DNA from: Boletus sp. NGJ
Lineage: Eukaryota > Basidiomycota > Agaricomycetes > Boletales > Boletaceae
Length of the DNA stretch: 64,000 bases
NCBI GenBank assembly: GCA_019096195.1
Contig: JAGTXK010000054.1
Span: 1-64,000 of the forward strand
Reading direction: 5' to 3'
The notes under the pieces are model-generated. The model saw only the letters and a program-made list of their open reading frames with translations, was not told the DNA's origin and did no database searches. Shown in pieces: positions 19,090 to 63,746 of the stretch (its first letter is position 1; each line of letters opens with the position of its first letter). The position numbers and the translations under genes were made by a program.

Positions 19090-21092
19090 ATGGGGGTTCG
19101 AGTACTTGATGTCTGCTTTGCTGGTTTGGCAGTGTACCTCGTCCAACGACTTGTCTGGAGGAGGAGGACTCCGCTTCCGCCTGGACCTCCTGGTTGGCCG
19201 CTCATTAGGAACCTGCTCGACCTTCCGATATATGCTCCGTATAAAACACTCGGAGCGATGAGCGGAAAACATGGCAAGTGTATAGACACTCCTCACAATG
19301 TACATACATCGCTCATACCATGCCAGGCCCTATCGTATCCCTCAACGTGATGGGTACGCAATACGTCGTCCTCAACTCCCTCAAGGCGACCAAAGACTTA
19401 CTCGAGAAGAAGAGCGCCATAACATCCAACAGGCCACACTTTACGATGTGCGGTGATCTTGTCGGGTGGAGTAATAATATGGGTTTTCTACAATACGGCA
19501 ACACGTACCGAAAATATCGCAAGTTCTTTCGTCAGCAAATTCTCACCAAGAGAAGTCTAGAGGTGTTCTACCCTGTTAAAGAAGCGGAAGCGAGACAGTT
19601 CCTACGCAATGTGTTGAAGAACGCTGATCATCTGGTTTCTCATAGTCGCAGGTGCGGTGCGGTGCGGTGGTGAATGTCCCTTCCGTGATTGTGCTAACGT
19701 GACATATTTTGGGCAGAATGGCGGGCTCAGTGATCTTGAGGATCTCACATGGTTATAGCGTCAAGGAAGATGGCGACCCGCTCGTGGAGATGGTTGACAA
19801 AGCCACGGACAATTTATCATTGATTGCTGCGCCAGGACGGTTTCTAGTGGACATATTTCCGATCTGTACGTTCTCCGAGGTTTTTTCAATCTCATTCGGT
19901 TTCTTGAAGGTTTTGCTAGTGCGATACTTGCCTGAGTGGTTCCCAGGAGGTGGTTTCCACAAAGATGCAAGGCAATGGCGAAACATGCTGAACGAGGCAG
20001 TGGGCACACCATACAGGTTTGTGTTGGAGAACCTGGTATGTTTATTCATTCAGTTCGTTATACTTGTTCGCTGATTCCGTGTTAGGCAAATGGTGATGCT
20101 GCGCCATCATTCATTTCACGGGTGCTTCAGGATGGTGTTACTCCTGAGGAGGAAGAGATTTTGAAGTGGGCTTCTTTTTCCATGTATTTCGGTATGGATT
20201 CAAGGCATGCCTCTCCGGACAGCAGAGCTTACATTGATTATAATTCTATTATTTATCAGGCGGATCAGACACCGTGAGTTGATGTTTTCGCAAACGAGAA
20301 TCGCGTTGAAAACTGTTGTAACAGACACCCAGCACATTATCTGCGTTTTTCCTTGCCATGACAATATACCCAGATATTTTGAAAAAGGCCCAGGCCGAAG
20401 TGGATGCTGTCGTCGGGCTCGGGAGGCTTCCGACCTTTGACGATCGTGATTCGCTTCCGTACGTGAACGCCATCTGTACAGAACTCCTTCGATGGCACGT
20501 GGTAGTTCCAATGGGTATGTATCTTCACTCATGTGTATCTTTTGTCTGACTGGAGTGTATGTGATGCTAGCGTGGCATGTTACTACACAGGACGATATCT
20601 ACGAGGGACATTTGATCCCCAAAGGGACGTGTCTTTTTGCGAATATATGGTTCGTGGGTTGTCGAGAGTGACTTTGAATTGAGATCTCAGCCACGTGCAA
20701 TGTTTGATGTAGGTTTATCCTATCCAACCTAGAGACATATCCCGATCCGGGCGTGTTCAACCCGGAGAGGTTCCTTGGTGAGGAACAGCAGCCTGACCCG
20801 CGTGAGGCGTGTTTCGGGTGGGGAAAGCGGTCATGTCCGGGTATGCACCTAGCAAATTCGACAATATTCATATGCATCGCGATGGCGCTGGCGACGTTGG
20901 ATGTATCGAGATGTGTCGAGAATGGCGTGGAATTGGTACCGAGATACGACGTCACGGAGGGGATCATACGGTGAATTTGCTAAATTGTTCTGATGTGGAT
21001 TTACTGACGACTGGTTTTGCAGTCATGTGAAGCCGTTCAAATGTAGGATTGTACCGCGATCGAAGATGGCGGAGGATCTCCTTCAGGCATGA
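19090..21092 (+). CDS. Cytochrome P450 B
   Basis: Same subfamily as gene A. N-terminal anchor MGVRVLDVCFAGLAVYLVQR, hinge LPPGPPGWP, then NRPHFTMCGDLVGW, KEDGDPLVEM, WFPGGGFHKDARQW, the I-helix GGSDT plus TPSTLSAFFLAM, the K-helix ELLRW, NPERF and the heme loop FGWGKRSCPG near 20815. The protein ends EDLLQA with TGA at 21090-21092. The start was chosen because it aligns with the paralogues' MG[VI]R. All splice sites read as in P450-E, including the GC-AG first intron (CATG/GCAAGT) and the 14-nt microexon GCGGATCAGACACC near 20260. No break was seen. It probably acts with a separate NADPH-P450 reductase, which is not in the window. Confidence 0.9.
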
Positions 21093-22027: not shown

Positions 22028-22338
22028 TCTACGTACGTGTGACTATTGTGTGACTAACGAACGTGCACCTTTTCGTTTTGGCTCGCTCGCTCGTCCGTTG
22101 GTAAACAGTGAGAATCATGGGGAACAGTGAGATGTGGACGCGGTGAGACAAGGTAGACAAACATGATGAATCCCATACATACTTATTATCAAAACAAATA
22201 ATGTAAAGTATAAGATTCCGAACGAACCGACCCCCCACGTCATTCATCTGTCGCAGAAGACGTGGTGACCAGCCAGCCGAAAGTCTCCAGAGAGTGGCTT
22301 ACCTACTACCAGCGTCTCAGTGTCAAAGGAACACTCGA
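22028..22338. other. Intergenic, no gene seen
   Basis: No supported feature. It leads into the 3' end of P450-C. Confidence 0.3.
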
Positions 22339-24507
22339 TTAACGACGCAACAAGGCCGCGGCCTTTGCAGACCTAGCCGTGATCCGGCACCTGGTGTCAC
22401 CAATGCATATGTGGAAGAGGCGACGGACATCATGCAAAGTACTCACGAAATCGTCCCCGAGGTGACGTCGACGAGTGCGGTGACTTCGACACCGTCTATA
22501 ACGTCCTTTGAAATCTCGAGTACGGCAAGCGACATGGCAACCGAGATGAAGAGGGACGCTTCCGCGAGGTGATAACCTAAGAAAGAAGACGTGGTAGCAG
22601 CCAATGCAATGCATGTCAGTTCTTCGTTCGGGTGCGAACACGGTCTCTTTACCTGGGCAGATCCTAGCATGGCGGACGTAGCGAGCATTTGCTCCCCTGA
22701 TCGTATACACATCATATCAATAACAACGTCTCCTACCTCCTTCCTAATCCAAAGCAGACATTGTGAGGATCAGGCTGGGGTGTCTCGCCGACGAACCGCT
22801 CAGGGCGAAAGACACTAGGATCTGAATACGTAGACGCGTCACGGAGATCGCCCTGAGTGTACGTTCAGTGGGGAATCGTTCGTTGCATGTGTACGTGTAT
22901 TCACGGATGCAGGGAAGCCAGCGCAATACTCACCACGCGTTTCCGAAAACGTGCGATCCTTTTGGGATAAGGAATCCTAATAAATGTCTTCCCTCGCGAC
23001 GTGGGGCACAGCTTCTTTTTTTCAGCTTAGTGAGCAGAGTCGAAGACATCAACGGGTACAGAGACAATACCTAGCGGTAGAACAGAGTGCTATCGAACGA
23101 CTTCTTTGTAGACTGCATTGATATAAGGAAGAGAATCCTGGTCATTGAAACAGGGCAATCACTCGCTGCCAACAACCGCATCAAGTTCTGCCTGTGCCTT
23201 GGCTTGAATTTCAGGAAACAAAACCGTGGCGAGAAAGGAGGCATGTATGGCGGAGACGACCTGAATAAGAGGTTGATCAGTACATACATGACTTCCTGGG
23301 ATAAAAGAGTGTACTGTGTCCGATCCCCCTGCGAAAAGATATCAAGACGAGATAAATAATATTGATAATCAAACGTGCCAAGATAGACGGCCACGGAAGT
23401 CCACATTATGAGATTCTCCTCCTCTGGACTCACCCCTCCTTCCAAGAGCGTGGACGAAAAGGACGGAATCGCTGTACCCGCCGCCTGGCCAACATGAGAT
23501 GTACTGCATTGAACGTAGAAGCTACTCTTACCATTTGCTCCACGGCATATTAGTGAGGCCGCAGATTCTGCATCAAAGGCTGATGGTATTTCTTTGCATC
23601 CTGGAGGAAGCCCGTACCAGGGAACCATTCTGGGAGATATCGTACTAGAATCCCTCTGAACATGCATTCACAGCGAAGGTTTTTCGAGCTTAGACTTACG
23701 AGCAGGGATAAGGACCACTAGGTATGCGGCAGGGGCTGAAATCAGCGAAACTACGTCCATGGCGTTGTCCGCCAATTCGACAAATGGATCTTTTTCTCTT
23801 TGAACAGTATACCCGTAGGTCACCTTGAGAATGATGGCCAGCAGTACTAGTGGTCGTGTGTGGCGATAACGAGCGAGAATAGGAATAGTATTACGATCAA
23901 AGTGCACTTACGAGCGTATGTGATTGATCAGACCCTCGGGTTGCCGCAACACATTGTCCAAGAACTGGGGGGTCTCCTCCTCTTCGATCGAGTTGAATAC
24001 CGCAATAGTATTACTGGTTCCAAACAAACGGTAGAACAACTTGCGATACCGGCGGAAGCGATTGTTACAAATAATGGAGAGTAATCCCTTACTAAAGCCA
24101 ACCAAGTTGGATGCCATGGTCATGTGCGGTCTGTCCGAACATTTGAGGCTCTGTTTCTCGAATATCGCAGAGATGGCCTTGGACGAGTTCAGAATGACTG
24201 GTATCATGGGGAGAAACTGCGTACCATGTTTTCCATTCAAGGCTGCAAAATCTTCCCAGCTTTTCTCGGTAGATAGCTGGAAGAGATTGCCAATCACTGG
24301 CCACCCAATAGGTCCATGTGGAAGTGGGCAGTAGCGCCTCGAATCAAGCAGCCGTTTGATAAGGTAAACTCCTGCTTCGAGGAGACAGACATCGAGGAAA
24401 GATATTGCCTGGGCTATTGACGACGAAGGAACGCTAGAATGTGGAAGGTGGAAGACAGAGGGAAGTGTCAGGCGGAATTTTGGGCCATGACTATAACCCG
24501 AGTTCAA
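22339..24507 (-). pseudogene. Cytochrome P450 C, a different subfamily, broken
   Basis: N-terminal anchor-like ISFLDVCLLEAGVYLIKRLL, hinge LPHGPIGWPVIGN, DRPHMTMASNLVGF, PFVELADNAMD, the K-helix YKEVVR, STYSDPSVFRPERFVGE, and a heme loop FGLGRRICPG assembled over three exons. The middle one is an 11-nt microexon (22653-22663) carrying the cysteine codon. The C-terminus ends ALLRR with TAA at 22339-22341. Breaks: TAG at 23090-23092 where Trp follows VVR in the paralogues, and a frame change between EDIY and FLIPKGSHVF near 22990. No in-frame ATG precedes the anchor, so the start is unresolved too. The intact, precisely spliced heme end suggests recent loss. Fragment 21455-21780 is a partial copy. 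Confidence 0.75.
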
Positions 24508-25265: not shown

Positions 25266-27255
25266 TCATGCCTGAAGGAGATCCTCCGCCTGCTTAGATC
25301 GCGGTACGATCATACATTTGAACGGTCTGACATGACTGCAAATCTAAGCTTAACAAATCCACATTACAACGAGTTAGCACACTCACCGTATGGTCCCCTC
25401 CGTGACGTCATACCTCGGCACCAGGTCCACACCATTCTCGACACATCTTGACACATCCAACGTCGCCAGCGCTATCGCTACAAATATAAAGATCGTCGAC
25501 TCCGCTAGGTGTGCACCTGGACACGACCGCCTTCCCCACCCGAAACACGCCTCGCGCGGGTCAGGCTGCTGTTCCTCACCAAGGAACCTCTCCGGTTTGA
25601 ACACGTCCGGATCGGGGTATGTCTCTGGGTCGGATAGCATAAACCTACACCAAACATTGCACGTGAGCTGAGATTTCAATTCAAAGTCACTCTCGACAAC
25701 CCACGAACCATATGTTTGGAAGAAGACACGTCCCTTTGGGGATCAAATGTCCTTCGTGGATACTATCCTGTGTACTGACATGCATACCTAGTATCACATG
25801 CACTCCAGTCAGACTAGAAACGCACATGGTAAAGATACATACCCATTGGAACTACCACGTGCCACCGAAGGAGTTCTGCGCAGATCGCGTTCACGTACGG
25901 AAGCGAATCACGATCGTCAAAGGTCGGAAGTCTCTTGTGCCCGACGACAGCATCCACTTCGGCCTGGGCCCTTTTCAGAATATCTGGGTAGATTGTCATG
26001 GCAAGGAAAAATGCAGATAATGTGGTGGGTGTCTGTTACAACGGTTTTCAACGCAATTCTCGGTTACGAAAACATCAACTCACGGTGTCTGATCCGCCTG
26101 ATAATTGATAGAACTGTAAGCTCGACCATCCCGAGAGCCATGCTTGAAGCCATACCGAGATACATGGAAAAAGAAGCCCACTTCAAAATCTCTTCCTCCT
26201 CAGGAGTAACACCACCCTGCAGTGCCCGTGAAATGAATGATGGCGCGGCATCGCCCTTTGCCTAACCCGCAATCAATAAACACGTATCACGAACTCGAAA
26301 AATAAACATACCAGCTCCTCCAACACAAATCTGTATGGTGTGCCCGCTGCCTCGCTCAGCATTTTTCGCCATCGCCTTGCATCCTTGTGGAAACCACCTC
26401 CTGGGAACCAGTCAGGCAAGTATCGCACTAACGAAACCATTTAAGTAACTGAAATAGACGAAAAAAAAAAGGTGGAGAACGTACAGATCGGAAATATGTC
26501 CACCAGAAACCGTCCCGGAGCTGAGATCACATTGAAATTTTCTATGGCTTTGTTAGCCATCTCCACGAGAGGATCACCGTCTTCCTTGACGGTATAACCA
26601 TGCGAGATCTTCAGGATTACTGAGCCGGCTGTTCTGCACAAAATATGCCATGTTAACACGATCATCGCACAAACGGCGCTGTACCGCACCTGTGACTCTG
26701 AGCGACGAGATCATCAGCGTTCTTCAACACATTGCGCAGGAATTGTGTCGCTTCAGCTTCCTGGGCAGGGTAGAATACCTCTAGGCTACTCTTGGTACCG
26801 ATTTGCTGACGAAAGAACTTGCGATGCTTTCGGTGTATGTCACCATATTGTTGAAAAGCTGTGGTATCATGCCACCCGACGAGGTCACAGCCCATCGTAA
26901 AGTGTGGCCTGTTGGATGTGATGGCGCTCTTCTTCTCGAGTAAGTCTTTGGTCGCATTGATAGAATTCAGAACGATGTATCGCGTGCCCATCATTTTCAT
27001 GGATATGACAGGGCCTGGCATACTGAGCATAAGCGAGGAATGCAATCTGTGTTAAATCAGTATGCACTTGCCATATTTTCTGCTCATGGCCCCAAATGTT
27101 TTGTACGGTGCATGGACCGGAAAGTCGAACAAATTTCCAATGAGCGGCCAACCAGGAGGCCCAGGTGGAAGCGGAGTCCTCCTTCTCCAGACAAGTCGTC
27201 CAACGAGGTACAATGCGAAACAAGCAAGGCAGACATCAAAAGCGTGAACCCCCAT
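25266..27255 (-). CDS. Cytochrome P450 D
   Basis: Starts MGVHAFDVCLACFALYLVGR, then LPPGPPGWPLIGN and NRPHFTMGCDLVGW. It continues with KEDGDPLVEMANKA, WFPGGGFHKDARRW, GGSDT plus TPTTLSAFFLAM, ELLRW, PERF and the heme loop FGWGRRSCPG near 25550. It ends AEDLLQA with TGA at 25266-25268. Exon borders match P450-E at every position checked (GC-AG first intron, 14-nt microexon, GT-AG elsewhere) and no break was found. In exon 1 and in MKMMGTRYIVLNS it is closest to P450-A, with which it probably forms the older pair. The 5' side faces the second repeat island. Confidence 0.9.
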
Positions 27256-29769: not shown

Positions 29770-32700
29770 GTTGGAACATGTGTGCCTTTAGGTGACTACT
29801 GACGAGGTTTGGATGGGGTAAGGTCCCCATATTGCTTGAAGAAGCATCCTGTCTAGTGTAGGAACTGTAGGGTGTGTGGGATGCACTTTGGGTCTGAGAA
29901 CAAGGGGGTGATCTGTCTTGCCTAGTTGTGTGTGGCATAGTGGAGACAGAATCTTGTGTGTTCATATCTGGGGCAGTGGAGGAGGAGGTAGACAATGGTC
30001 TCATTGTGATCAGGGCAGTGAGGGCAGAATGAGTTGTCCGATTTGGAGATTCAGTGGAGGTGTTTGTTTAGGGGTGCATGGCTGGTGTGGAGTTGGAAGA
30101 GGGTAGCAGCATGATGTTTGGGTAAATCATCAGTGAATTTGAGGAATTTGTTGGAGGGGAGGGAACTATCAATGGCAAGTGCAATGATGGCACAGGGGGA
30201 CTTTTCAAAGATGGTTTTTTGGAGATTTTTTAGTGATGCAAGGATGTGTTGTTTTGCCACTGATTTACTTCTGGGGAGAGTCTTTATTTGGCCTTTGGGA
30301 TCTCTGAGCTGCATTGAGAGGGTTTTCGCTGTACTATTGTTGCCCATTGCTGCCTGTTTGGCAGCTTTGTCCACTTTCTTGTTTCCTGGGATTTCGACAT
30401 GCATTGGTGTCCATTTGAGTGTGATTGAACTGATATGGTGATGTGCAAGTGCCAATTTTAGGCTTAAGTGGAAAATGTCCATAAGATAGTGGCTGGGCTC
30501 TGATATGAGTGCCATGGAGGCGAGGAGTGCTGCCATGTTATCAAGTCTGAGTGATACTGAGCATATTCTTTATCTCTCTCTTTTCAGCAACTCCACTGCA
30601 AGAATCATCATTCTGACTATCTCCCCCTCATATATCATGTGATCCTCTACTGATCCTAGCTTGTATCTTAACTCTCCTACTTTTATTCTGCTTCTTGTGA
30701 TTACTACTGCTTCACTTATCTTACTGTCATGTCCTAAGCTGTCTGAGTATAAGCATGCATTTTCTCTTATCTCCACATCAATATCTTGTGTTTGAGCTTT
30801 GATTTTACCCTCTTTTGTTTTCAGCTTAACTTCTGAGGTCCACTTTGAGTCAAAGTGGGCTGGTGTGATGATTTCAAAGGATCTGGGGTCTAGGTTGAAA
30901 GAGTTGGTGAGGTTGTGGAGTGGTGATTTGTGACACTTATGATGTCTGAATGTGCTAATGATGTGTTTGTACAATGGATGTGATTTAGGGACAGTGACCA
31001 TCCTGAGTGTGGCATGACTGCAGTGCTTATGGAGGAGGACTGGGATCTGAAATAGATTGGTGTAGGTGAATAGGAGGTCAGAGGCTGTTGTGAACATTTC
31101 TTCTATAATGTGGATAGTGGCAAGGCATTGTACTGATTTTATTTTTTTTCTGAAGCCATGGGCTCTCCATCCACTGTCATTTTTTCCTCTGCCCTGGTTG
31201 AGCATTCTTGTTTCCCATACATCTACTACATATAGCATTTTTGATATGGCTACCCCCTTGTATAGCTTCTTTATCATTCTTGCTTTGATTCTTTCATTAT
31301 GCATTTGCATGCTAGCACATATTTTGTATCTTTAGCTATGGAGTATGCAGTGTGTTATGTGAAGTAGAGTTCATTGTCTATGAAGACTCTGAGGAACTTG
31401 TAGCTGGTAGTTGGGTTGATGGAGTGTTTTTGAATGGTCATGGAGGGTCATGGAGACAGGATCATCTTTCCTCTGTGCTATGGGTCTGGTACTTGTGCAT
31501 GGGAGACTCCTAGTAATGCAGTTTTGTCTAGCTTGAATTCTATGTAGTGATCTCTGCTCCATTCTAGTGCTTCCCCTTCCCCTTCCATAATCTGTTTTAG
31601 TTTCATGTTTGCATCTGCAAAGTCCTTTCCCCTTGCTATAAATGCTATGTCATCAATGAAACCCAGGTCCATCTTGTTTTTTTTCATCTTTGGCAAGTCC
31701 GATGAGATTTGTGTTGTAGAATAGAAATATGATGGGTGATATGGAGCAACCCGAATCAAGACCTATGGGGATTTGGAATGTTAGTGAGGTGAAGTCATCA
31801 AAGGATAGAGTAGTTATCTGGCTGTCTAGTTGGTGCTTGTACCAGTCCATGTATTCTTTGGAGATTCCTTTCGACCCCATGTTGTGGATTAGGCATTCTA
31901 TCACAACACTGGGGAAGGTGGCTTTGATGTCTAGAAAGAGCATTGAGATGTATTTATTAGTGCTATGGGCCCAAGCATTGTGGATGAACTTAGTCATCAA
32001 GTAGATGGAGTCCACTGTGGATCTGCCTGGTTGGCCACCAAAGTGGATGGAAGGGAGTAGGCTGTGGTGCTCTGCAATGTTTGAGATGTCATTGGCAATG
32101 CATGAGGATAAGATTTTGGCCATGGTGTTGAGGAGGGCAATAGGTTGATATACTTTAAAGATGATGGTTAATAATAGTTTCCATGATTCTGGATAGAAGC
32201 CTAGGTCAAATGTCGGAAGATAGTTCCTAGATATGAGATAAGTAGATCAGCTGCATTTGTGAATATAGTGTTGCTGACCCTGTTAGAGCCAGGCACTTTG
32301 TATGGTGAGAGCTTTTTGATGGCTTGGAGAATTTGTTCATTAGTTATGTTACTGAAAGTGCATACTGGTTTAGGGTATTGATCATTAGGGTAGTCAGGGA
32401 TGTGTTTGGGGCACAGTTTGAAGAAAGTTTTGTATAGCATTTCACTTGTCTCTTGATTCGTCTATTTGTTATTTTGGGAGTGGGTATTAAACTTTCTAAG
32501 GTTAGGGATGTGTGAGATGAAGTGGTTGGAAGTTTGTCTACTAGATACTTGTGGGCTTGCCAGATGGTGGCAACATTGATGTTTTTAAGGTACTCATTCC
32601 AGTGGTCTTTCTTGGCTTTTTATAATTTTTTGGTAAAGGTGTTGCATGCTTTCTTATAGTCCTGGTGGATTGGGTTGTTTTGTATGTGGTGGCAGGCTTT

Positions 32701-33760
32701 GGCTTTGTATGTGATTTGTTTGAGATTGTGATTAGTGGTATCTACAATAGTTTGGGTGACCATCAGTGCATAGCATATGGGGATAGTTTTGAGAGTGGGA
32801 CATTCTCTTTAATGGCAGAGGTGATTGCTTCTACTAAGGTGTTCAGTCAGTCTTGTGCTTTGTCTATGTTTGTGATGGGGGTGGATTTGGGAAGATTGTG
32901 TAGTTTTGATTCTAGGGTGGCATGAAATTCTTTTCAGTCAGTGGCTCTATAGTTGTGTCTTGGGGGCAGGTTGGTCAGTTTGGAGGCAAGGTTTAGTTCT
33001 GTTGTAATTGGAAAGTGGTCAGTGTTTGCTGGTGTTAGTTCCTCTTTTGTATTACATGAGTTTATGAAGTTGATAAGATGAGATGTGCAGAAAACATTGT
33101 CTGGTCAGGTTAGATTATCTGTGGAGTTGACATGTAGAGTTGGGATACTAGGAGGAAGTGCCATTTTTAGATCATACTGTATGTCAATAGGATGTTGAGG
33201 AGTTGATTTGCAGAGTTGAGGTTCACAGCCATGAAAAGATGGTGGTTGTTGGGGTGGTCCCACATTGAATGATGGTGGTTAAAGTCTCTAAGTAGAAGGA
33301 TGCTGCAGGAGTCGTTGTTTCTATCCAGTTAGTGTTGAGAGGTAAGGTGGTGGGTGAGAGTGTGGAGGGTGTGGGAGTGGGTGCCATTGTTGTAGATGTT
33401 GTATATCCTGAGTTTGCCAGAGTTGCCTGATAGTTTGAGTGCAGTAATGTTGGGTGTGTCAAGGGGGATTATTCTCCAGTGGTCTTTGGAGATGGTTTTG
33501 TTGATGAAGATGATAGAGCAGGTTCTTTTGGTGTTCATAGTGTCATGGATGGTGGGGTATATGATGTTCCAATGAGGGTTTGACATGGTGAGGTTGATGC
33601 AGTTGATGTGAGGTTCTTGCAAGATTGTGATGTCATACTGTTTTGGATTGAGTTCATATAGGAGATGTTGCTGGGCAATGTTCGACTTGTTGAGGTTTTG
33701 TTGCCAGATACATAGGGATTTTCTGTTTGATGGTTGGGTGTTCAGGTGTGGAATATTCAT
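29770..33760 (-). pseudogene. LINE ORF2: endonuclease, reverse transcriptase, RNase H
   Basis: The endonuclease start has WQQNLNKSNIAQQHLLYELN and ILQEPHIN near 33600-33720, then RDFNHHHSMWDHPNNHHLF, fitting the APE motif GDFNxHHxxWD. The reverse transcriptase has LSPYKVPGSNRVSN (near 32310), GQPGRSTVDSIYLMTKFIHN and LFLDIKATFPSV (near 31940-32040), and FIDDIAFIARG in place of the YADD box near 31660. RNase H is seen in WTPMHVEIPGNKKVDKAAKQ near 30350-30410. A tail CPHCPDHNETI...HCPRY follows near 29960-30020. The enzyme copies LINE RNA into a nicked target. Stops and frame shifts lie between these blocks. Confidence 0.82.
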
Positions 33761-33830
33761 GAGGTGAAGTTAGAGAGACCCTCATAGATTGATTGACTGG
33801 GAGAGAAGTAGATGGTGTTTTCTCCATCTT

Positions 33831-34783
33831 CTAGAGAGGGGGAGGATCTGCCTGGTGTAGTTGTTGGGGGGATGGCATTGGTGGGTTTGTGACAAGGGAG
33901 GAGTTGGGTAGGTTGGGTGGGTTGGTAGGCAGTTCTTGCTCTCTTTGCTCTGGCTTATAAAAAGCAGTGTTATTTCTTTTTCTCTTGGTTGTTGAGGCTG
34001 TATCCTTTATTGGAGTGGGCAGTCTGGTGAGAGAAAGTGGGTACTGGGTGGGCAGTGGGACAGGAGGGTTTGGTGTATGGGTTGGAGGTGTCATGGGTGG
34101 TGATCCAGGATGAGGGGTCATCAATTATGGGGAAGTATTTGAATGTTGCTTCTTTGTTGTTGTTGAACATCCTCTGTTTAGCTATGCAAAAGGAGGGGCA
34201 GTTCCTGTCCCAGAATGTGTGTTCATGAGTTTTGCAGTTGACACAGGAGAAGTTGTTCAGATACATCATAATGCAATCTTTAGTGGTGTGATTTGGTTAC
34301 CATATGTTCTGCATGTTTTGGTGTATTTAGGGCAGTTTTTGGTGAAATGGTGGTCTAAAATTTGGCAGTGGTAGTATCTAGTGGGGTCAGAGTAGTGTCT
34401 ATGGCCACAAGCTTTGTGGCCTTCTATGTTAAGTCCCTGGCAAACTACTATGTTGGCATTTTTGGTGGTGTTGAAGGTGAAGATGGTGTGGGTGACTTTC
34501 TGGTCCTTTTTTCTGTGAAGGGGTTTTTTGATCCATACAGCAGATTTGATACACTCTAGGGCGAGGTTGGAGCTGCTCTCCATGGAGAAGAGGGAGTAGG
34601 GGCACTCAACATCTAGAGTGATAGGGACAAATTCTATGAGCAGTTTGTAGGTGCAATCTAGGAGGGAGATGTCAGTGCCAAAGCATTGAAGGAATTGAGC
34701 TTATTTCTTGGGGAGCATAGCCATGTTACACTCTCTGGGTGGTTAAGTTCTAATATGTGGAGGTTGTCTCTTGCATGGCATGG
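33831..34783 (-). pseudogene. LINE ORF1-like gene with zinc knuckle, 5'-truncated
   Basis: Minus-strand reading begins at the R1 junction with NLHILELNHPESVTWLC. It continues KLLIEFVPITLDVECPYS and AVWIKKPLHRK, then CRHYSDPTRYYHCQILDHHF with NCPKY, a CCHC-like knuckle near 34370-34460. A Pro/Thr-rich tail follows (34124-33831). Gag-like ORF1 proteins of fungal LINEs bind the element RNA. The start is missing because repeat R1 abuts it, and the frame changes at least twice. Confidence 0.7.
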
Positions 34784-47125: not shown

Positions 47126-49118
47126 ATGGGGATTCGAGTACTTGGTGTCTGCCTTGCTGGTTTGGCGCTGTACCTCGTCCGACGATTTGTCTGGAGGAGG
47201 ACTCCGCTTCCCCCTGGACCTCCTGGTTGGCCGTTCATTGGGAACCTGCTCGACCTTCCAATATATGCTCCGTATAGAACGCTTGGAGCAATGAGCGGAA
47301 AATATGGCAAGTGCATAGACACTCCTCACAATGTACATACGTCGCTCATGCTACGCCAGGCCCTATCATATCCCTCAACGTGATGGGCACGCAATACGTC
47401 GTGCTCAACTCCTTCAAGGTAACAAAAGACTTACTCGAGAAGGAAAGTGCCGTCACATCAAACAGGCCACACCTCACGATGGGTGGTGACCTTGTCGGGT
47501 GGGGTAAATCTACGGTTTTTCTACAATATAGCGACACGCACCGAAAACATCGCAAATTCATTCATCAGCAAATCGGCACCAAGAGTAGCCTAAAGGTGTT
47601 CTACCCTGCCCAAGAAGCTGAAACGAGACGATTACTACGCAACGTATTGAAGAACACTGATAATCTCATCGCTCATAGTCGCCGGTGCGATACGGTGCCG
47701 TTTGTGCCCTGCGCGATTGTGCTAATGTGACACATTTTGGGCAGAACGGCCGGCTCAGTGATTTTGAAGATCTCGCATGGCTATACTGTCAAGGAAGATC
47801 GCGATCCGCTCGTGGAAATGGCTAACAATGTCATGGACAATTTCATTGAGATCTCGGCTCCGGGCCGGTTTCTTGTTGACCTATTTCCGATCTGTACGTT
47901 CAGAGTTGCTTCGATCCATTTCAGCTCTTGAAGGGTTTCACTAGTGCGATACTTGCCTGACTGGTTCCCAGGAGGTGGTTTCCACAAAGATGCAAGGCGA
48001 TGGCGAAAAATGCTGAACGAGGCAGTGGGCACTCCATACAGGTTTGTGTTGGAACACCTGGTATGTTTATCCTTTAAGTTCGTGACTCTTGTTCGCTGAT
48101 TCCGGATTAGGCAAAGGGCGACGCTGTGCCATCATTCATTTCTCGGGTCCTTCAAAATGGTGTCACTCCTGAGGAGGAAGAGATCTTGAAGTGGGCTTCT
48201 TTTTCCATGTATTTCGGTATGGATTCAAGGCATGCCTCTCCGGACAGCAGAGCTTACATTGATTATATTCTATGATTTATCAGGCGGATCAGACACCGTG
48301 AGTGGAATTTTCCACAAACAAGGGGATGTCACTAAAAAGTGCGGTAACAGACGCCCACCGCAGTGTCTGCGTTCTTCCTTGCCATGACAATCTACCCCGA
48401 TATTCTGAAAGTGGCGCAGGCCGAAGTGGATGCTGTCGTCGGGCACGACAGACTTCCGACCTTTGACGATCGTGATTCGCTTCCGTACGTGAATGCGATC
48501 TGCACAGAACTCCTTCGGTGGCACGTGGTGGCTCCAATGGGTATGTATCTATACCCAACCTTGTGCATTTCCGATCTGACTGGAGTGCGTGTGATGCTAG
48601 CTATGCATGCCACTACACAGGATAATATCTACGAAGGACACTTAATCCCGAAAGGGACATGTCTTATTGCGAATATATGGTTCGTGGCTTTTCGAGAGTG
48701 ACATTGAATTGAGATCTCAGCTGAAATGGTTTGTGTAGGTTTATCCTATCCAACCCAGAAACCTATCCCAATCCGGACGTGTTCAACCCGGAGAGGTTCC
48801 TTGGTGAGGAACAGCAGCCCGACCCGCGTGATGCGTGTTTCGGGTGGGGAAGGCGGTCGTGTCCCGGTGCGCACCTAGCGGAGTCGACGATCTTCATATG
48901 TGTCGCGATGGCGCTGGCGACGCTGGATGTGTCGAGATGTGTCGAGAATGGTGTGGAGTTGGTGCCGAGACACGACGTCACGGAGGGCACCGTACGGTGA
49001 GTCTGCTAAATTGTTCTGATGTGTATTTGCTAACAACTGGTTTTGCAGTCACGTTAAGCCGTTCAAATGTAGGATCGTACCGCGATCAAATAAGGCGGAG
49101 GATCTGCTTCAGACATGA
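47126..49118 (+). CDS. Cytochrome P450 E (reference member of the array)
   Basis: Exons read as 47126-47306, 47360-47684, 47745-47893, 47945-48060, 48111-48216, 48284-48297, 48351-48540, 48601-48679, 48739-48996 and 49049-49118. They sum to 1488 nt, 495 residues, in frame throughout. Landmarks: membrane anchor (residues about 1-22), LPPGPPGWP (about 29-37), GGSDTT oxygen-activation motif (about 293-298), K-helix E350/R353 in ELLRW, NPERF (about 403-407) and the heme loop FGWGRRSCPG with Cys at about 428. The first intron (53 nt) fits only as GC-AG. Exon 6 is 14 nt. Introns are 50-67 nt. It oxidises an unknown small molecule at the ER with electrons from P450 reductase. Close to G and H in exon 1. 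Family number not assigned. Confidence 0.93.
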
Positions 49119-50271: not shown

Positions 50272-51595
50272 TAATCGGCATTCGAGTACTTGATGTCTGC
50301 CTTGCTGGTTTGGCACTGCATGTACCTCGATCAACGACTTGTCTGGAGGAGAACTCCGCCTGGACCTCCTGGTTGGCCGCTCATTAGGAACCAGTTTGAC
50401 CTTCCAATATATGTTCCATATAAAACGCTCGGAGCGATGAGCGGAAAATATGGCAAGTGCATAGACACTCCTCACAATGTACATACGTCGCTCATGCTAC
50501 GCCACGCCTTATCATACACCTCGACGTGATGGGTACACAATACATCGTCCTCAACTCCCTTGAGGCGATCAAAGACTTACTCGAACATTGCCATCACATC
50601 AAATAGGCCACATTTTACGATGGGTGTAACCTTGTCGGGTGATAAATTTACGACTTTGCTACAATATGGTGACACGTACTCCCAGTAAAACATCACAAAT
50701 TCATTCATCAGCTAGAGTAGCCTAGAGGTATTCTACCCTGCCCAAGAAACCGAAACGAGACAATCATTACGCAACGTGTTGAAGAACCTTGATGATCTCG
50801 TCGCTCATAGTCGCCGGTGCGATACGGTGCCGTTTGTGCCCTGCGCGATTGTGCTAATGTGACACATTTTGGGCAGAACGGCCGGCTCAGTGATCCTGAA
50901 GATCTCGCATGGTTATACCGTCAAGGAAGATGGTGATCCGATCGTGGGGATGGCTAACAAAGTCATAGATAATTTCATTGAGATCTCGGCTCCGGGACAG
51001 ATTGTAGTGGATATACTTCCGATCTGTACGTTCAGAGTTTCTTCGATCTATTTCAGTTCTTGAAGGATTTCACTAGTGTGATACTTACCTGACTGGTTCC
51101 CAGGAGGTGGTTTCCACAAAGATGCAAGGCGATGGCGAGAAAAGCTGAGCGAGGCAGTGGGCACACCATACAGGTTTGTGTTGGAACACCTGGTATGTTT
51201 ATCCTTTACAGTAAGTTCGTGATTCTTGTTCGCTGATTCCGGATTAGGCAAAGGGCGACGCTGTTTCACGGGCGCTGTAGGATGGTGTTAGTAGTACTCC
51301 TGAGGAGAAGAGATTTTGAAGTATGGCTCAAAAGCACAGCTCTTGGGACAGTTGAGCTTACAATTCTATGATTTATCAGGCGAATCAGACACTGTGAATT
51401 GATTTATTTCACAAGCAAGACTCAAGAGGGTCGCACTGAAAAGCTCAATAACAGACGTCCCCAGTGTCTGCATTTTTCCTTGCCATGACAATCTACATAA
51501 TCTAAAAGTGGCGCAGACTTCCGACCTTTGTGGATCGTGATTCACTTCCGTACGTGAATGCGGCTCCTTCGATGATGCGTCAACGTTGACACAAC
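50272..51595 (+). pseudogene. Cytochrome P450 F, truncated and broken
   Basis: Aligned by eye to P450-E: VLDVCLAGLALH and PPGPPGWPLIRN (exon 1), NVMG-type and phase-equivalent exon 2, TAGSVILKISHGYTVKEDGD (exon 3, 50876 on), the exon 4 block GGAGGTGGTTTCCACAAAGA, the microexon region near 51380, and LPYVNA-type text near 51550. Damage: the start codon is lost (ATCGGC where paralogues have ATCATGGGG), exon 1 has deletions, exon 2 has deletions and frame changes, and exon 5 lacks bases. The copy ends in the K-helix exon with no PERF or heme loop. It lies directly upstream of the glycosyltransferase 3' end. Confidence 0.85.
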
Positions 51596-51760
51596 GCATC
51601 CAACATTTTCGGTATGTTTCTATCCGTAATTAGGCAGGCATCACCGACGCGATGAGTGCGTAGTAATTTCAACCTCGTTTCGGTAGATCCCACCACCCAG
51701 GGCCATACGTAGTACATCAGAATTTGCATATTGTACTTTCAATCATGCAGTACATCTACT
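51596..51760. other. Short spacer, no gene seen
   Basis: Between the truncated end of P450-F and the glycosyltransferase stop codon; nothing supported. Confidence 0.3.
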
Positions 51761-53458
51761 TCATATTTCGGGAACTGCATCTAACTTGCTTATCCCTGCC
51801 TCCTTCAAGATCACCATGGAAGAAAGTTCTCGCCCATTCCCTCTTGCTCTGCAAAGCTCCTTCAAACGTTTTGCCGACCTTCTGAATTTGCCCGCTTCCT
51901 CGGTATCTCCTGTTACTCTCACCAATGCTTTACCGAATTCTTCTGCCCGAACACTTGGTGCACAGGTTTTATTCCCGAAAATACCAATGCTCAGGAACTC
52001 TGCGCGGTTTGCATGGTCGTAGGTATCCAACCAGACAGGAAGGACGATGTGCGGAATGCCAGACCTATTCAAAGACATTCAACTCAGGTACTCGGTGAAG
52101 ATCACAGACGAAAAACCTCACCAAACGCCCTCAAAGAATGAATTCGCTCCTCCGTGGTGGACTGTACAAACCACGTTGGGATGTTGCAATATCGACACTG
52201 GTTCTGCCTCCATCCAAGGCAATACCTTCACCCTCCCTTCTTTGATTTCCTTCCCGATGATGTCGTCAATCGCTCCTTGAATGTCCCCACTTTCCATGAC
52301 CTTCCAGAGCACTTGGATTTTACTAGCGCCTCTTTGATTGTGATAATCTAGCAATATACGAAATGCGCTAGCCATCTCTCTCGCGACCCTTTCGTCGGAA
52401 ACGACGTGCGATCCAAGGTTGACCATTACGGTTGGTCCATCGTCCAACCACTTCATCAAAGCTGGATCGGTCTCCTCGAGGGGATCAAAGGGTATGATGA
52501 TGGGGCCACATAGGTGTAGGTGTTTGGGGATGAGGGTAAAGGCGAAGTCTGTTTCCACGAGTGCAGGACAGATATGCGTTACTCCACAGCCAAGTTGGTT
52601 ACCTAACTCTTTAGGCGTAGTGTTGACCCCCAGGGACCTACGTAAGGCTAGAAATTGTTTGATCTGCGTCGAAGTCATCGTTCGTATAGCGAGCCGAACG
52701 TGAAGATAGATGTTGAGAGGGATCTGCCACCACTTGAGAGGAAATGGAAATCCCGACGATAGACTAGGCAGGTGGTTGTCAGTTACCCCGAACGAGTGGA
52801 TGAAAATTTCTACGACGAACACAGGATATTTCCAAAATCCCGCCAAGTAGGGCTGCATCATCACCGCGATATCCTTTGTGGAATTCGGTGATATATTGAT
52901 GAACTTTTGGTCTGCGAGTTTGCAGGCATCCTGTGCAATATGGAACATATTATCTATCACCACCACGTTTGGTTTGATGGCTGTGATGATCTCCTTGCAA
53001 CTTTCGACAGCTGCGACAAATTCCTCCTGACTCCAGGGATATAATATAAGGTCTATCTTTGAGTAACTTTCCAAAGCTCCCGACACACCATGAGAGTGCG
53101 CCAAGTCAGCAGTTCTCATACCGTGCTTCATGAGAGCTTCATTCCACGATGCTATGCCCTTGAATTCACAGAAGTTAACAGAGCCAGTGGAATTACTCCT
53201 GGAGCACGAGGCGTGGCGGTCGACGAGCTCTTGAAGGCGTGAAACGCGGGTTCTAAGCGGCGAAAAAGACGCAATGTAGACATTCATGCCTGCGAGGGCG
53301 AGTTCATATGAGGTTGCAAGGGTCACGTTGGCTTGCCCGTACTCCGAGTATGTAAAGATGAGAACGATAGGGAGGGGACTCATGGCAGAGAGGATCAACT
53401 GCTGGGGGAAAGTGTTCGAGAATGCTGGCGGGCAGATGCTCACGGTGTCTGGCGCCAT
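51761..53458 (-). CDS. UDP-glycosyltransferase (GT1 family)
   Basis: Two exons (53458-52122 and 52064-51761) joined over a 57-nt GT-AG intron give 1641 nt, 546 residues. The N-terminal half starts after SPLPIVLIFTYSEYGQANVT and has the acceptor-domain features PLRTRVSRLQELVD, PNVVVIDNMFHIAQDACK and SPNSTKD. The C-terminal donor-binding half has PTVMVNLGSHVVSD, VLPWMEAEP, VCTVHHGGANSFFEG, then across the intron WSGIPHIVLPVWLDTYDHAN, matching the GT1 signature (HGGxxS/NxxE, then DQ/DxxxNA). It would transfer a sugar from a UDP-sugar to a lipophilic acceptor such as a sterol or a P450 product. The N-terminal position usually held by the catalytic His (GH) reads GQ. Convergent neighbour of the P450 pseudogene; next to the R3H/G-patch gene on the other side. 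Confidence 0.88.
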
Positions 53459-54399
53459 GACGGCAGCAAGGCCACCATTTTCATAATAGATGGCGGGGTT
53501 GAAACTTTGTCATGGAGTTACTCCAATGGACCATCCGAAGATGGCTGCATCGCACATGAGAACATCCTTCCTGATGGTTCGGTTTCCCCGTCGATATCCT
53601 ATCTAGACACTGATTAAATTGACTGTGTCCTTGCCTGTTTCGTGTGGTACTGCCTTGCAAGTTGGATTTTGATGCGAGGAACTGCGCAAATGGAAAGATT
53701 GGTCAGCGTCCTCAGCTCCAAAAGTACAAAGTACTCAAGTTAACTAAAGACGGTCGGAGTTCAAATCTGGGAAGCTAATACTCGTCAGTTTCACAACTTT
53801 GAGAATCCTACTCAACCCTTTCATCGTCCACACATAGATAGCATATTTTAAGAGTACTGTGAACTTGAACGAGCTAATTTGAAGTAAAAATGAACGAGAT
53901 CGTCAAAAGCTAATCGTACTTCACCTGCCGATCAGTGCCGAAGCTGAGTTTGAAGCTTTTCTGAGCTGCCGTGAGTGTGCCGACCTCCCTCACTGCGAGG
54001 TCAATTCAGAAGGAGACCGGGGAACAACAGTCGACCTGACCCAACTTATGTTCCTCGTACAACGACGCATATGAAATGCCACATACGGTCCCTTTTCTCG
54101 CACCATCCTGCTACCTATATATACCTTTGCTGCAGTACAAATTGTATCATCATCTAATCTGGATAGACAACCCCAGTTTGATGTATATACTAGCATCGAT
54201 CTCTCCGTCGTCCAATACTCACCATCCCAGCGACCGCACTAGAGTCTCCGATATACAAATAAGGTCAGTTCTCGGAGTTTCTCTCGCAGAAGTGAAAGAA
54301 CGAAACAATACACAGCCACATGTGCATGTGACTGTACCCAGACTGGTGGAGAGTCACAGAGTTGTATCTACACCACTCTTTCGCCGTACCTCAACATAA
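53459..54399. promoter_or_regulatory. Intergenic between divergent glycosyltransferase and G-patch genes
   Basis: The 5' regions of two outward-facing genes. TATATATA at 54116-54123 (context CTACCTATATATACC) is a likely TATA element for the plus-strand gene, about 280 bp before its ATG, so a 5' untranslated part of about 250 nt is expected. No coding sequence was recognised here. Confidence 0.5.
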
Positions 54400-58389: not shown

Positions 58390-60386
58390 TCATCCCAGAA
58401 GAAGATCCTCCGCCTCCTTCGATCGCGATACGATCCTACATTTGAACGGCTTGACATGACTGCAAACCAGTCGTCAGTAAATCCACACCAGAACAATTTA
58501 GCAAACTCACCGTAGGACCCCCTCCGTGACGTCGTGTCTCGGCACTAACTCCACACCATTCTCGACACATCTCGACACATCCAAAGCCGCCAGCGCCATC
58601 GCGACACATATGAAGATCGTCGACTCCGCTAGGTGCACACCTGGACACGACCGCCTTCCCCACCCGAAACACGCATCACGCGGGTCGGGCTGCTGTTCCT
58701 CGCCAAGGAACCTCTCCGGGTTGAACACGTCCGGATTGGGATAGGTTTCTGGGTTGGATAGGATAAACCTACACAAAACCATTTCAGCTGAGATCTCAAT
58801 TCAATGTCACTCTCGAAAAGCCACGAACCATATATTCGCAATAAGACATGTCCCTTTCGGGATTAAGTGTCCTTCGTAGATATTATCCTGTGTAGTGACA
58901 TGCATAGCTAGCATCACACGCACTCCAGTCAGATCAGAAATGCCAAGGTTGGGTATAGATACATACCCATTGGAGCCACCGCGTGCCACCGAAGGAGTTC
59001 TGTGCAGATCGCATTCACGTACGGAAGCGAATCACGATCATCAAAGGTCGGAAGTCTGTCGTGCCTGACGACAGCATCCACTTCGGCCTGTGCCACTTTT
59101 AGAATATCGGGGTATATTGTCATGGCAAGGAAGAACGCAGACACTGCGGTGGATGTCTGTTACCGCGCTTTTCAGTGCGATTCTCTTGTTTGTGAAATAA
59201 TTCAACTCACGGTGTCTGATCCACCTGATAAATAATAGAATTATAATCAATGTAAGCTCTGCTGTCCGGAGAGGCCTGCCTTTAATTCATACCGAAATAC
59301 ATGGAAAAAGAAGCCAACTTCAAAATCTCTTCCTCCTCAGGAGTAACACCGTCCTGAAGCACCCGTGAAATGAATGATGGTTCAGCATCGCCCTTTGCCT
59401 AACACGGACTCAGCGAACAAGTATCGTGAACTCGAAATAAACATACCAGGTGCCCCAACACAAACCTGTATGGTGTGTCCGCTGCCTCGTTCAGCATTTT
59501 TCGCCATCGCCTTGCATCTTTGTGGAAACCACCTCCCAGGGAACCACTCAGGCAAATATCGCACTAGAGAAACCCTTCAAGAAACCGAAGGATTCCGAAA
59601 AAAAAAACGGAGAACGCACGGATCGGAAATATGTCCACTAGAAATCGTCCTGGCGTAGCAATCATAGATAAATTGTTCGCGACATTGTTAGCCATCTCCA
59701 CGAGCGGATCACGATCTTCCTTGACGGTATAACCATGCGAGATCTTCAAAATCACTGAGCCCGTCATTCTGTCCCAAATATCTCACGTTAGCACGATCAC
59801 CCAGGGCACAACGGCACCGGATCGTACTTGTGAGTATGAGCGATGAGATCATCAGCGTTCTTCAACACATTGCGTAGGAATTGCCTCGCTTCGGTTTCTT
59901 GAGCAGGGTAGAACACCTCTATGCTACTCTTGGTGCCAATTTGCTGACGAAAGAATTTGCGATGTTTTCGGTACGTGTCACCGTATTGTAGAAAGCCTGT
60001 GGATTTACCCCACCCGACAAGGTCACAGCACATCGTAAAGTGTGGTCTGTTGGATGTGATGGCGCTTTCCCTCTCGAGTAAGTCTTTCGATGCCTTGAAG
60101 GAGTTGAGCACGACGTATTGCGTGCCCATTACGTTGAGGGATATGATAGGGCCTGACATAGCATGAGCGACGTATGTACATCGTGAGGTGTGTGTATGCA
60201 CTTGCCATATTTTCCGCTCATGGCTCCGAGGGGTTTATATGGAGCATATATCGGAAGGTCGAGCAGGTTCCCGATGAGGGGCCAACCAGGAGGTCCAGGC
60301 GGAAGCGGAGTCTTCCTCCAGAGAAGTCGTCGGATGAAGTACAGTGCCAAACCAGCAAGGCAGACACCCAGTACTCGAATCCCCAT
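58390..60386 (-). pseudogene. Cytochrome P450 G, one frameshift
   Basis: Start MGIRVLGVCLAGLALYFIRR, LPPGPPGWPLIGN, NRPHFTMCCDLVGWGKSTGF, KEDRDPLVEM, GGSDT plus TPTAVSAFF-type I-helix, ELLRW, PERF, heme loop FGWGRRSCPG near 58650, end EDLLLG with TGA at 58390-58392. All splice sites match P450-E. In exon 4 the paralogues read WFPGGGFHKDA, but here one extra base at about 59535-59537 (CCTGGGAGGTGG instead of CCTGGAGGTGG on the coding strand) shifts the frame to WFPGRWFPQRC and would truncate the protein before the I-helix. Everything else is intact, so this is either a very recent loss or a base-call error. Nearly identical in exon 1 to P450-H. Confidence 0.85.
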
Positions 60387-61766: not shown

Positions 61767-63746
61767 TCATCCCAGAAGAAGATCCTCCGCCTCCTTCGAT
61801 CGCGGTACGATCATACATTTGAACGGCTTGACATGACTGCAAACCAGTCGTCAGTAAATCCACACCAGAACAATTTAGCAAACTCACCGTACGAGCCCCT
61901 CCGTGACGTCGTGTCTCGGCACTAACTCCACACCATTCTCGACACATCTCGACACATCCAACGTCGCCAGCGCCATCGCGACACATATGAAGATCATCGA
62001 CTCCGCTAGGTGTACACCTGGACACGACCGCCTTCCCCACCCGAAACACGCCTCATGCGGGTCAGGCTGCTGTTCCTCGCCAAGGAACCTCTCCGGGTTA
62101 AACACGTCCGGATCGGGGTATGTCTCTGGGTTGGATAGGATAAACCTACACAAACCATTTCAGCTGAGATCTTAATTTCATGTTACTCTCGACAAGCCAC
62201 GAACCATATATTCGGAAGAAGACACGTCCCTTTCGGGATGAAACGCCCCTCGTAGATATTATCCTGTGTAGTGACACGCGCAGCTAGCATCACACACACT
62301 CCAGTCAGTCCATAAATGCACATGGGAAGATACGTACCCGTTGGAGCCACCACGTGCCACCGAAGGAGTTCTGTGCAGATCGCATTCACGTACGGAAGCG
62401 AATCACGATCGTCAAAGGTCGGAAGTCTGTCGTGCCCGATGACAGCATCCACTTCGGCCTGTGCCACTTTTAGAATATCGGGGTATATTGTCATGGCAAG
62501 GAAGAACGCAGACACTGCGGTGGGTGTCTGTTACCGCGCTTTTCAGTGCGATTCTCTTGTTTGTGAGATAATTCAGCTCACGGTGTCTGATCCACCTGAT
62601 AAATCATAGAATTGTAAGCTCAACTGTCCCAAGAGGTGAATGCATACCGAGATACATGGCAAAAGAAGCCCACTTCAAATTCTCTCCCTCCTCGGGAGTA
62701 ACACCATCCTGCAGTGCCCGTGAAATGAATGATGGCACAGCATCACCCTTTGCCTAACCCAGAATTAATAAACAAGTATCACGAACTCAAAGAATAAAGA
62801 TACCAGGTGCTCTAACACAAACCTGTATGGTGTGCCCACTGCCTCGTTCAGCATTTTTCGCCATCGCCTTGCATCTTTGTGGAAACCACCTCCAGGGAAC
62901 CACTCAGGCAAATATCGCACTAGAGAAACCCTTCAAGAAACCGAAAGAGATCGCAAAAAAAAATTCAGAGAGAACGTACGGATCGGAAATATGTCCACTA
63001 GAAATCGTCCTGGGGCAGCAATCATAGATAAATTATTCATGACATTGTCAACCATCTCCACGAGAGGGTCACGATCTTCCTTGACGGTATAACCATGCGA
63101 GATTTTCAAGATCACTGAGCCCGCCATTCTGTCCGAAATATGACACATTAGCACGATCACCCAGGGCACAACGGCACCGTATCGCACTTGCGACTATGAA
63201 CGACGAGATCATCAGCGTTCTTCAACACATTGCGTAGGAATTGTCTCGCTTCGGTTTCTTGGGCAGGGTAGAACACCTCTATGCTACTCTTGGTGCCAAT
63301 TTGCTGATGAATGAACGTGCGAAGTTTTCGGTACCGGTCACCATATTGTATAAAAGTTATGGATTTACCCCACCCGACAAGGTCACAGCACATCGTAAAG
63401 TGTGGTCTGTTGGATGTGATGGCGCTTTCCTTCTCGAGTAAGTCTTTCGATGCCTTGAAGGAGTTGAGCACGACGTATTGCGTGCCCATTACGTTGAGGG
63501 ATATGATAGGGCCTGACATAGCATGAGCGACGTATGTACATCGTGAGGTGTGTGTATGCACTTGCCATATTTTCCGCTCATGGCTCCGAGGGTTTTATAT
63601 GGTGCATATATCGGAAGGTCGAGCAGGTTCCCGATGAGGGGCCAACCAGGAGGTCCAGGCGGAAGCGGAATCTTCCTCCAGAGAAGTCGTCGGATGAAGT
63701 ACAGTGCCAAACCAGCAAGGCAGACATCCAGTACTCGAATCCCCAT
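61767..63746 (-). CDS. Cytochrome P450 H
   Basis: Start MGIRVLDVCLAGLALYFIRR, LPPGPPGWPLIGN, NRPHFTMCCDLVGWGKSITF, KEDRDPLVEM, WFPGGGFHKDARRW (frame intact, unlike gene G), GGSDT plus TPTAVSAFFLAM, ELLRW, PERF, heme loop FGWGRRSCPG near 62030, end EDLLLG with TGA at 61767-61769. The ten-exon layout with GC-AG first intron and 14-nt microexon is kept. No break was seen. It is the closest paralogue of P450-G, with near-identical exon 1, first intron and promoter, so the two arose by a recent tandem duplication of about 3.4 kb. Role as for the other members: an ER monooxygenase of unknown substrate. Confidence 0.9.

Follow-up and report, generated by a model that had tools for sequence, protein, structure and literature searches.

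Very small exons in fungal cytochrome P450 genes have been described before, and the case closest to the one reported here is the 8-nt exon within the AGHETT motif of CYP5141A1 from Phanerochaete chrysosporium (Nelson and Syed 2026, PMC12940212); its authors state that there are multiple examples of micro-exons in the I-helix oxygen-binding motif. The same source describes, in Fusarium CYP621A, an exon of 1 nt within the PKG motif, at which gene models fail. Microexons of 2-10 amino acids occur in nearly one third of the P450 genes of P. chrysosporium, 41 of which have exons of 29 bp or less (Doddapaneni et al. 2005, PMC1184071). Exons of 13, 15 and 25 bp are reported in Phlebia brevispora P450 genes with cloned cDNAs (PMC3292997), and very short exons are mentioned for Phlebia radiata (PMC6540522). 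In the open-licence literature we found neither a 14-nt exon at the I helix nor an 11-nt exon in the Cys loop, and saw no printed account of the 11- and 12-nt I-helix exons of two further P450 groups described below. Here we report a 14-nt exon at the I-helix motif of the gene P450-E, one of eight P450 copies, lettered A to H by their order, in a 64-kb window (the whole stretch of DNA analysed, 64,000 nucleotides).

The P450-E gene and its 14-nt exon

P450-E occupies positions 47126-49118 of the plus strand in ten hand-placed exons: 47126-47306, 47360-47684, 47745-47893, 47945-48060, 48111-48216, 48284-48297, 48351-48540, 48601-48679, 48739-48996 and 49049-49118, the last of which includes the stop codon. 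Together these sum to 1488 nt, or 495 codons plus the stop, and the exact open frame of 495 codons claimed in a preliminary description of this DNA is confirmed. A splice-aware realignment of the finished protein to the DNA returned identical boundaries, which is a check of consistency and no independent proof. Intron 1 (47307-47359, plus strand) is of the GC-AG type (GCAAGT...CAG), and a GCAA donor is found at intron 1 of all six stop-free window genes (A, B, D, E, G and H).

The product matches the Pfam family PF00067 (E=2.6e-68) over residues 29-476, corresponding to positions 1-456 of a profile of 462, and by this family match it is a full-length cytochrome P450 with a predicted role as a monooxygenase. 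Its translation contains GGSDT, ELLR, PERF and FGWGRRSCPG, so that all four classes of P450 signature motif named in PMC12940212 (I-helix, EXXR, PERF and FxxGxRxCxG) are represented.

The exon of interest is exon 6 (GCGGATCAGACACC; 48284-48297, plus strand), which is entered in phase 1 and left in phase 0. It lies between intron 5 (48217-48283, plus strand, 67 nt, GTATGG...CAG) and intron 6 (48298-48350, plus strand, 53 nt, GTGAGT...CAG), and the coordinates, lengths and frame first assigned to it proved correct. Exon 5 (48111-48216, plus strand, 106 nt) ends in SMYF and the first base of the G293 codon, exon 6 finishes that split codon and goes on to encode G294-S295-D296-T297, most of GGSDT, and exon 7 (48351-48540, plus strand, 190 nt) begins with TPTAVSAFF. 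The I-helix motif of P450s usually takes the form AGx[DE]T, and its acid and threonine have an established part in oxygen activation. In the alignment with the PDB match 3c6g (P450 2R1), ggsdtt of P450-E falls on AGTETT, and since GGSDT begins at residue 293, the acid and threonine of the I helix correspond to D296 and T297. Exon 6 is therefore a small exon inside the oxygen-binding motif, and it has the features of a coding microexon, being internal, no longer than 15 nt, bounded by splice sites on both sides and able to restore the protein. The original proposal that it encodes the oxygen-activation motif was supported: with it the P450 is intact, and 37 of 50 related loci have an exon of equal length. 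From the gene model we infer that the 14-nt exon is spliced into the RNA.

In order to see what other readings of the interval between exon 5 and exon 7 keep the frame, introns of the GT/GC-AG type were enumerated at lengths of 38-250 nt for one intron and 38-160 nt for two. This gave four one-intron and 93 two-intron readings that are open and in frame, and the original assertion that the frame is kept only with a 14-nt exon was accordingly too strong. The I-helix motif survives in none of the four one-intron readings and in 27 of the 93 two-intron readings, and the sole enumerated reading that retains the motif along with the complete exons 5 and 7 is the one with boundaries at 48217/48284/48298/48351. 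The four one-intron readings are what could be said for a gene that has no microexon at all, in which a single longer intron leads from exon 5 to exon 7 and the proteins lack the oxygen-activation motif. To this we give practically no credence: not one of these readings keeps the motif, and 37 of the 50 loci, the majority of them distant from E in sequence, repeat the motif together with the exon length and phases, which would not be expected of non-coding DNA.

Copies in the window and across the genome

Within the window the 14-mer occurs seven times at two mismatches or fewer, compared to 0.27 expected, and is followed by GTGAG in six of the seven occurrences and by GTGAA in F. The identical letters are present in A (17283-17296, minus strand), B (20260-20273, plus strand) and D (26084-26097, minus strand), and a form differing by one base, GTGGATCAGACACC, in G (59211-59224, minus strand) and H (62582-62595, minus strand), just as had been described for these five copies. 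The microexon of C (23315-23328, minus strand) lies in a decayed P450 copy (22243-24417, minus strand) with four in-frame stops in the alignment, and has the upstream donor GCACGT; the GC with which this intron starts is at 23378. The site in F (51380-51393, plus strand) has two mismatches, the end of its upstream exon is missing, and it too lies in a decayed copy (50290-52138, plus strand), with five in-frame stops in the alignment. Two other features share the window: open frames at about 30051-34700 (minus strand) that resemble fragments of a non-LTR retroelement, with likeness to reverse transcriptase and RNase H, and, inside the P450 cluster, a 463-residue open frame at 52118-53509 (minus strand) that resembles a UDP-glycosyltransferase.

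We considered the identity of these letters as a sign of selection and rejected it, as the exons next to the microexon resemble one another to much the same degree. Four-fold sites of the six stop-free window copies agree at 52/60 comparisons in the microexon, 88/103 at the end of exon 5, and 113/136 and 300/332 in exon 7, and because the microexon is no more alike than its neighbours, recent duplication explains the sharing of its letters. The introns that flank the microexon are 62-100% alike among the same six copies. The likeness of these introns in A, B, D, E, G and H is patchy, with intron 5 of B and E 97% alike, intron 6 of A and B 100%, and others down to 62%; this patchwork suggests that gene conversion may have acted in the P450 cluster of the window.

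The relatives outside the window were collected from a single genome, that of the window itself, in an assembly of 32.8 Mb and 141 contigs that yielded at least 108 P450 matches from 92 scored candidates of 224. Further scans with E and with one relative as queries scored 86 of 189 and 87 of 213 candidates, and the list is a lower bound because only part of the candidates were scored and not all matches were fetched. Eighty fetched regions and the eight window genes gave 88 loci, each of which was aligned with nine query proteins, never its own, by a script that applies splice rules and is given no intron places; eight of the nine queries had themselves been modelled with E as guide, and the aligner rewards the motif. 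The 50 loci that scored above 500 are called the clan here, and the 38 below 500 were excluded from its count because the queries modelled them unreliably.

The script found the 14-nt exon in 34 of the 50 clan loci (27/42 outside the window and 7/8 inside), and in three more that it had missed (L025, L064 and L065) the exon was spotted by eye and then read in frame, for a total of 37/50, or 30/42 outside the window. The following exon is 190 nt long in 31 of the 34 script-found loci, the exceptions being L011 (187 nt), L021 (196 nt) and C (213 nt), and the donor upstream of the 14-nt exon is GC in L025, L029 and C. Identity to E is 30-49% in the 22 loci compared of the 27 found by script outside the window. 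Those that show no usable 14-nt exon (13/50) include L006, which has no intron after the motif and keeps the one before it, L073-L075, which have the intron after the motif only, and L069, which has neither. An exon of 10 nt is found in L031/L063, where the upstream intron is seemingly shifted by 4 nt at both ends, and one of 19 nt at the I-helix site of L034/L057; L037 and F are decayed, and L071 and L072 are broken. All of these counts include pairs more than 90% identical, both outside the window (L008/L020, L015/L016, L031/L063, L034/L057, L041/L042, L064/L065 and L074/L075) and among its copies within the 50 (E/G and G/H). L064/L065 are 100% identical, L074/L075 99.9% and L015/L016 95.6%, on the same or different contigs, and these three pairs are either recent duplicates or leftover haplotypes of the assembly.

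Codons of the form [AG]-[GASI]-x-[DE]-[TSN] are encoded by the 14-nt exon of 33 of the 34 loci, compared to 0.015 expected from dinucleotide shuffles; since these loci had been chosen for having the exon, the test shows that chance does not produce such an exon within the interval, and says nothing of its frequency. At four-fold sites outside the window identity is 124/414 in the microexon, and 186/569, 303/1046 and 791/2757 in its neighbours. Outside the window, then, the sense, length and phase of the 14-nt exon are held and its letters vary. It could be argued that recent tandem copying in the cluster produced the agreement in the 14 letters, which would then say nothing of conservation, and the window, where the microexon is no more alike than the flanking exons and the introns are up to 100% alike, fits this well. 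The argument holds for the letters, but not for the exon, which is present in 30 of the 42 loci outside the window, where length, phases and coding sense persist; as an account of the exon itself we regard it as highly improbable. The word conserved, as first applied to these 14 nt, is thus justified for the exon (37/50 loci) and not for the letters shared in the window.

Of the 40 rows of a tree, 32 have the 14-nt exon, and these fall to either side of the midpoint root; the six intron states require five changes, which is the minimum possible. The root was placed at the midpoint for drawing only, and the tool warned of long branches; ten of the 50 loci (C, F, L065, L075, L070, L071, L072, L037, L021 and L025) are outside the tree. 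This midpoint-rooted tree indicates that the intron pair is probably ancestral to the P450 clan, and would have been mostly kept through duplication and sometimes lost or shifted. Searches for relatives of exon 7 gave 54 pattern matches in IMG/VR and 435 in GTDB genomes, none of which was confirmed.

Splicing, mis-splicing and gene models

In our judgment exon 6 is very probably a coding microexon that is included constitutively in this family of fungal cytochrome P450 genes and is spliced by intron definition. Each of the short flanking introns would be recognised as a unit across the intron, and if introns are recognised in this way the length of the exon is of little matter to the splicing machinery. 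In the 34 loci these introns measure 50-68 nt before and 46-60 nt after the microexon, and intron definition has been inferred for basidiomycetes in a study in which the fraction of cassette exons averages 3% in fungi and protists (PMC2397502). Unusually strong donors at the flanking introns were considered and rejected: the donor match, out of 4, is 2.85 and 3.03 at these introns compared to 2.94 at the other introns of the same genes. A splicing signal within the 14 letters was likewise rejected, their four-fold sites being about as variable as those of the neighbouring exons.

Inclusion of the 14 nt would supply the acid-threonine pair of the I helix, D296 and T297, and skipping or intron retention would break the frame and lead to an early stop. 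In all 30 stop-free genes, six in the window and 24 outside it, a stop appears when the microexon is skipped, and retention brings one in 29/30 for the intron before it, 28/30 for the intron after it and 30/30 for both. The mis-spliced RNA would probably be lost to decay. Given these stops and flanking introns that are ordinary, we take the exon to be constitutive.

A dropped microexon need not break the frame if a different acceptor is used. An AG was sought from 30 nt before the start of exon 7 to 75 nt after it. In 25 of the 30 stop-free genes such an acceptor allows a bridge from the true donor that omits the microexon, keeps the frame and meets no stop, with no weight given to the strength of the acceptor. 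In P450-E the bridge from donor 48217 to acceptor 48364 is in frame and deletes the nine residues GGSDTTPTA. For E, G and H one such acceptor sits 13 nt inside exon 7; the positions of the in-frame acceptors differ between genes. These bridges speak for the microexon as a regulated switch, in which skipping under some conditions either makes the RNA unproductive or yields a P450 that lacks its catalytic pair and the level of enzyme is set by splicing, and a switch with a 20-nt microexon is described for Xlr2 of Trichoderma virens (PMC11121469). We consider such a switch very unlikely here, because 14 is not divisible by three and plain skipping leads to an early stop in every one of the 30 genes, because the in-frame acceptors sit in different places in different genes, because the silent sites of the microexon carry no excess of conservation, and because cassette exons are rare in fungi (PMC2397502).

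The same bridges bear on annotation. In the 34 loci, 113-138 nt separate the start of exon 7 from the donor that precedes the microexon. Models that cross this gap with one intron should be distrusted, because in 25 of the 30 stop-free genes the frame can be kept by a bridge that starts at the true donor; such a model silently deletes the catalytic pair, and enzymes expressed from it are predicted to be probably inactive. A rule for curation of this P450 family follows: expect a 14-nt exon and then a 190-nt exon at the I helix. It had been suggested at the outset that exons this short are rarely annotated and that automated models are likely to lose the motif or split the gene. The first part is overstated in view of the 41 P. 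chrysosporium genes with exons of 29 bp or less (PMC1184071), and the second is plausible, with precedents in transcripts from gene models that are wrong at the 1-nt exon (PMC12940212), in the 20-nt exon that is absent from a JGI model (PMC11121469) and in plants (PMC8831610).

Other tiny exons and comparison with known systems

The I helix is not the only catalytic motif of these P450s to be split. In P450-C an 11-nt microexon (22653-22663, minus strand) carries the codon of the heme-ligand Cys (R-I-C-P-G), and an 11-nt exon with this codon (R-x-C-P-G), entered in phase 2 and left in phase 1, is found in C and in L022, L025, L029, L030, L064 and L065. Its letters are GATCTGCCCAG in L022, L029, L030 and C and TCGATGCCCGG in L064. 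In L022, L029 and L030 the exons of 117, 11 and 130 nt add up to 258 nt, the length of the unsplit exon 9 of E. Introns near the heme-ligand Cys occur at several positions in the clan, and in 15 loci with a readable motif there is none within 45 nt.

Two further P450 groups, both of which scored below 500 with the clan queries, have tiny exons at the I helix. In the second group (L043-L050 and L052) a 12-nt exon, encoding TSSN and the like, is found in 9 of the 12 loci examined, the remaining three having no match to the anchor used, and includes the threonine in 8/9; as 12 is a multiple of three, skipping of this exon would keep the frame. In the third group an 11-nt exon, encoding VSLS/ISLT and the like, directly follows AGYETTS in eight of nine loci (L019, L023, L024, L026, L027, L028, L035 and L039) and is absent from L080; more than one upstream donor is possible in five of the eight. 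L040 has no split after AGYETTS. An exon of 25 nt (GxxxxxNxW) that lies after the PKG region also recurs in 19 of the 41 stop-free clan loci, for example L008, L010, L011, L014-L017, L055, L056 and L058; the window genes have one 79-nt exon in its place, and the 25-nt exon of L006 is located elsewhere.

Microexons as such are unsurprising, since with 9-12 introns placed at random in 495 codons each gene is expected to have 1.4-2.5 exons no longer than 30 nt. An exon of that size holding both the D and the T codon is expected under the same placement in 1.1-1.9% of genes, and an excess of tiny exons at the I helix over random expectation is suggestive and not established, because the I helix was looked at first and conserved stretches align best. 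One tentative idea is that, in the source fungus, P450 catalytic motifs are hotspots where introns recur, and that splitting these motifs off could be favoured. The boundaries of the I-helix microexons differ, in that the 14-nt exon ends in DT, the 11-nt exon follows AGYETTS and the 12-nt exon starts at the threonine, and in the subgroup with the Cys exon both sites critical to the reaction would lie on 25 nt of exon; an error of splicing might then give a dead or decayed product, not a half-working enzyme. We think this doubtful. That more than one P450 group has such small exons at its catalytic motifs offers a testable case of introns settling in rigid protein motifs.

Compared with the described systems, the exon of P450-E is closest to that of P. 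chrysosporium CYP5141A1, which is likewise very small and lies in the I-helix motif of a P450 from a basidiomycete; the exon of P450-E differs in being 14 nt and not 8, in holding the whole acid-threonine pair, and in having been counted over the P450 clan of one genome with its phases, losses and shifts (PMC12940212). With the P450ome of P. chrysosporium it has in common small exons, short introns and tandem clusters (PMC1184071). Exon sizes and intron locations are likewise conserved among tandem paralogs in basidiomycete P450 families (PMC3899305). As in Fusarium CYP621A, a tiny exon sits in a rigid P450 motif, although that case concerns the PKG motif of an ascomycete and is supported by RNA reads (PMC12940212). 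The plant microexons of 15 nt or less belong to other families and are supported by RNA, yet they are also old, conserved, placed in key protein motifs and often missed by annotation (PMC8831610). The exon of P450-E is, in sum, a further case of a type of microexon already described in fungi, one that is ordinary and easily missed.
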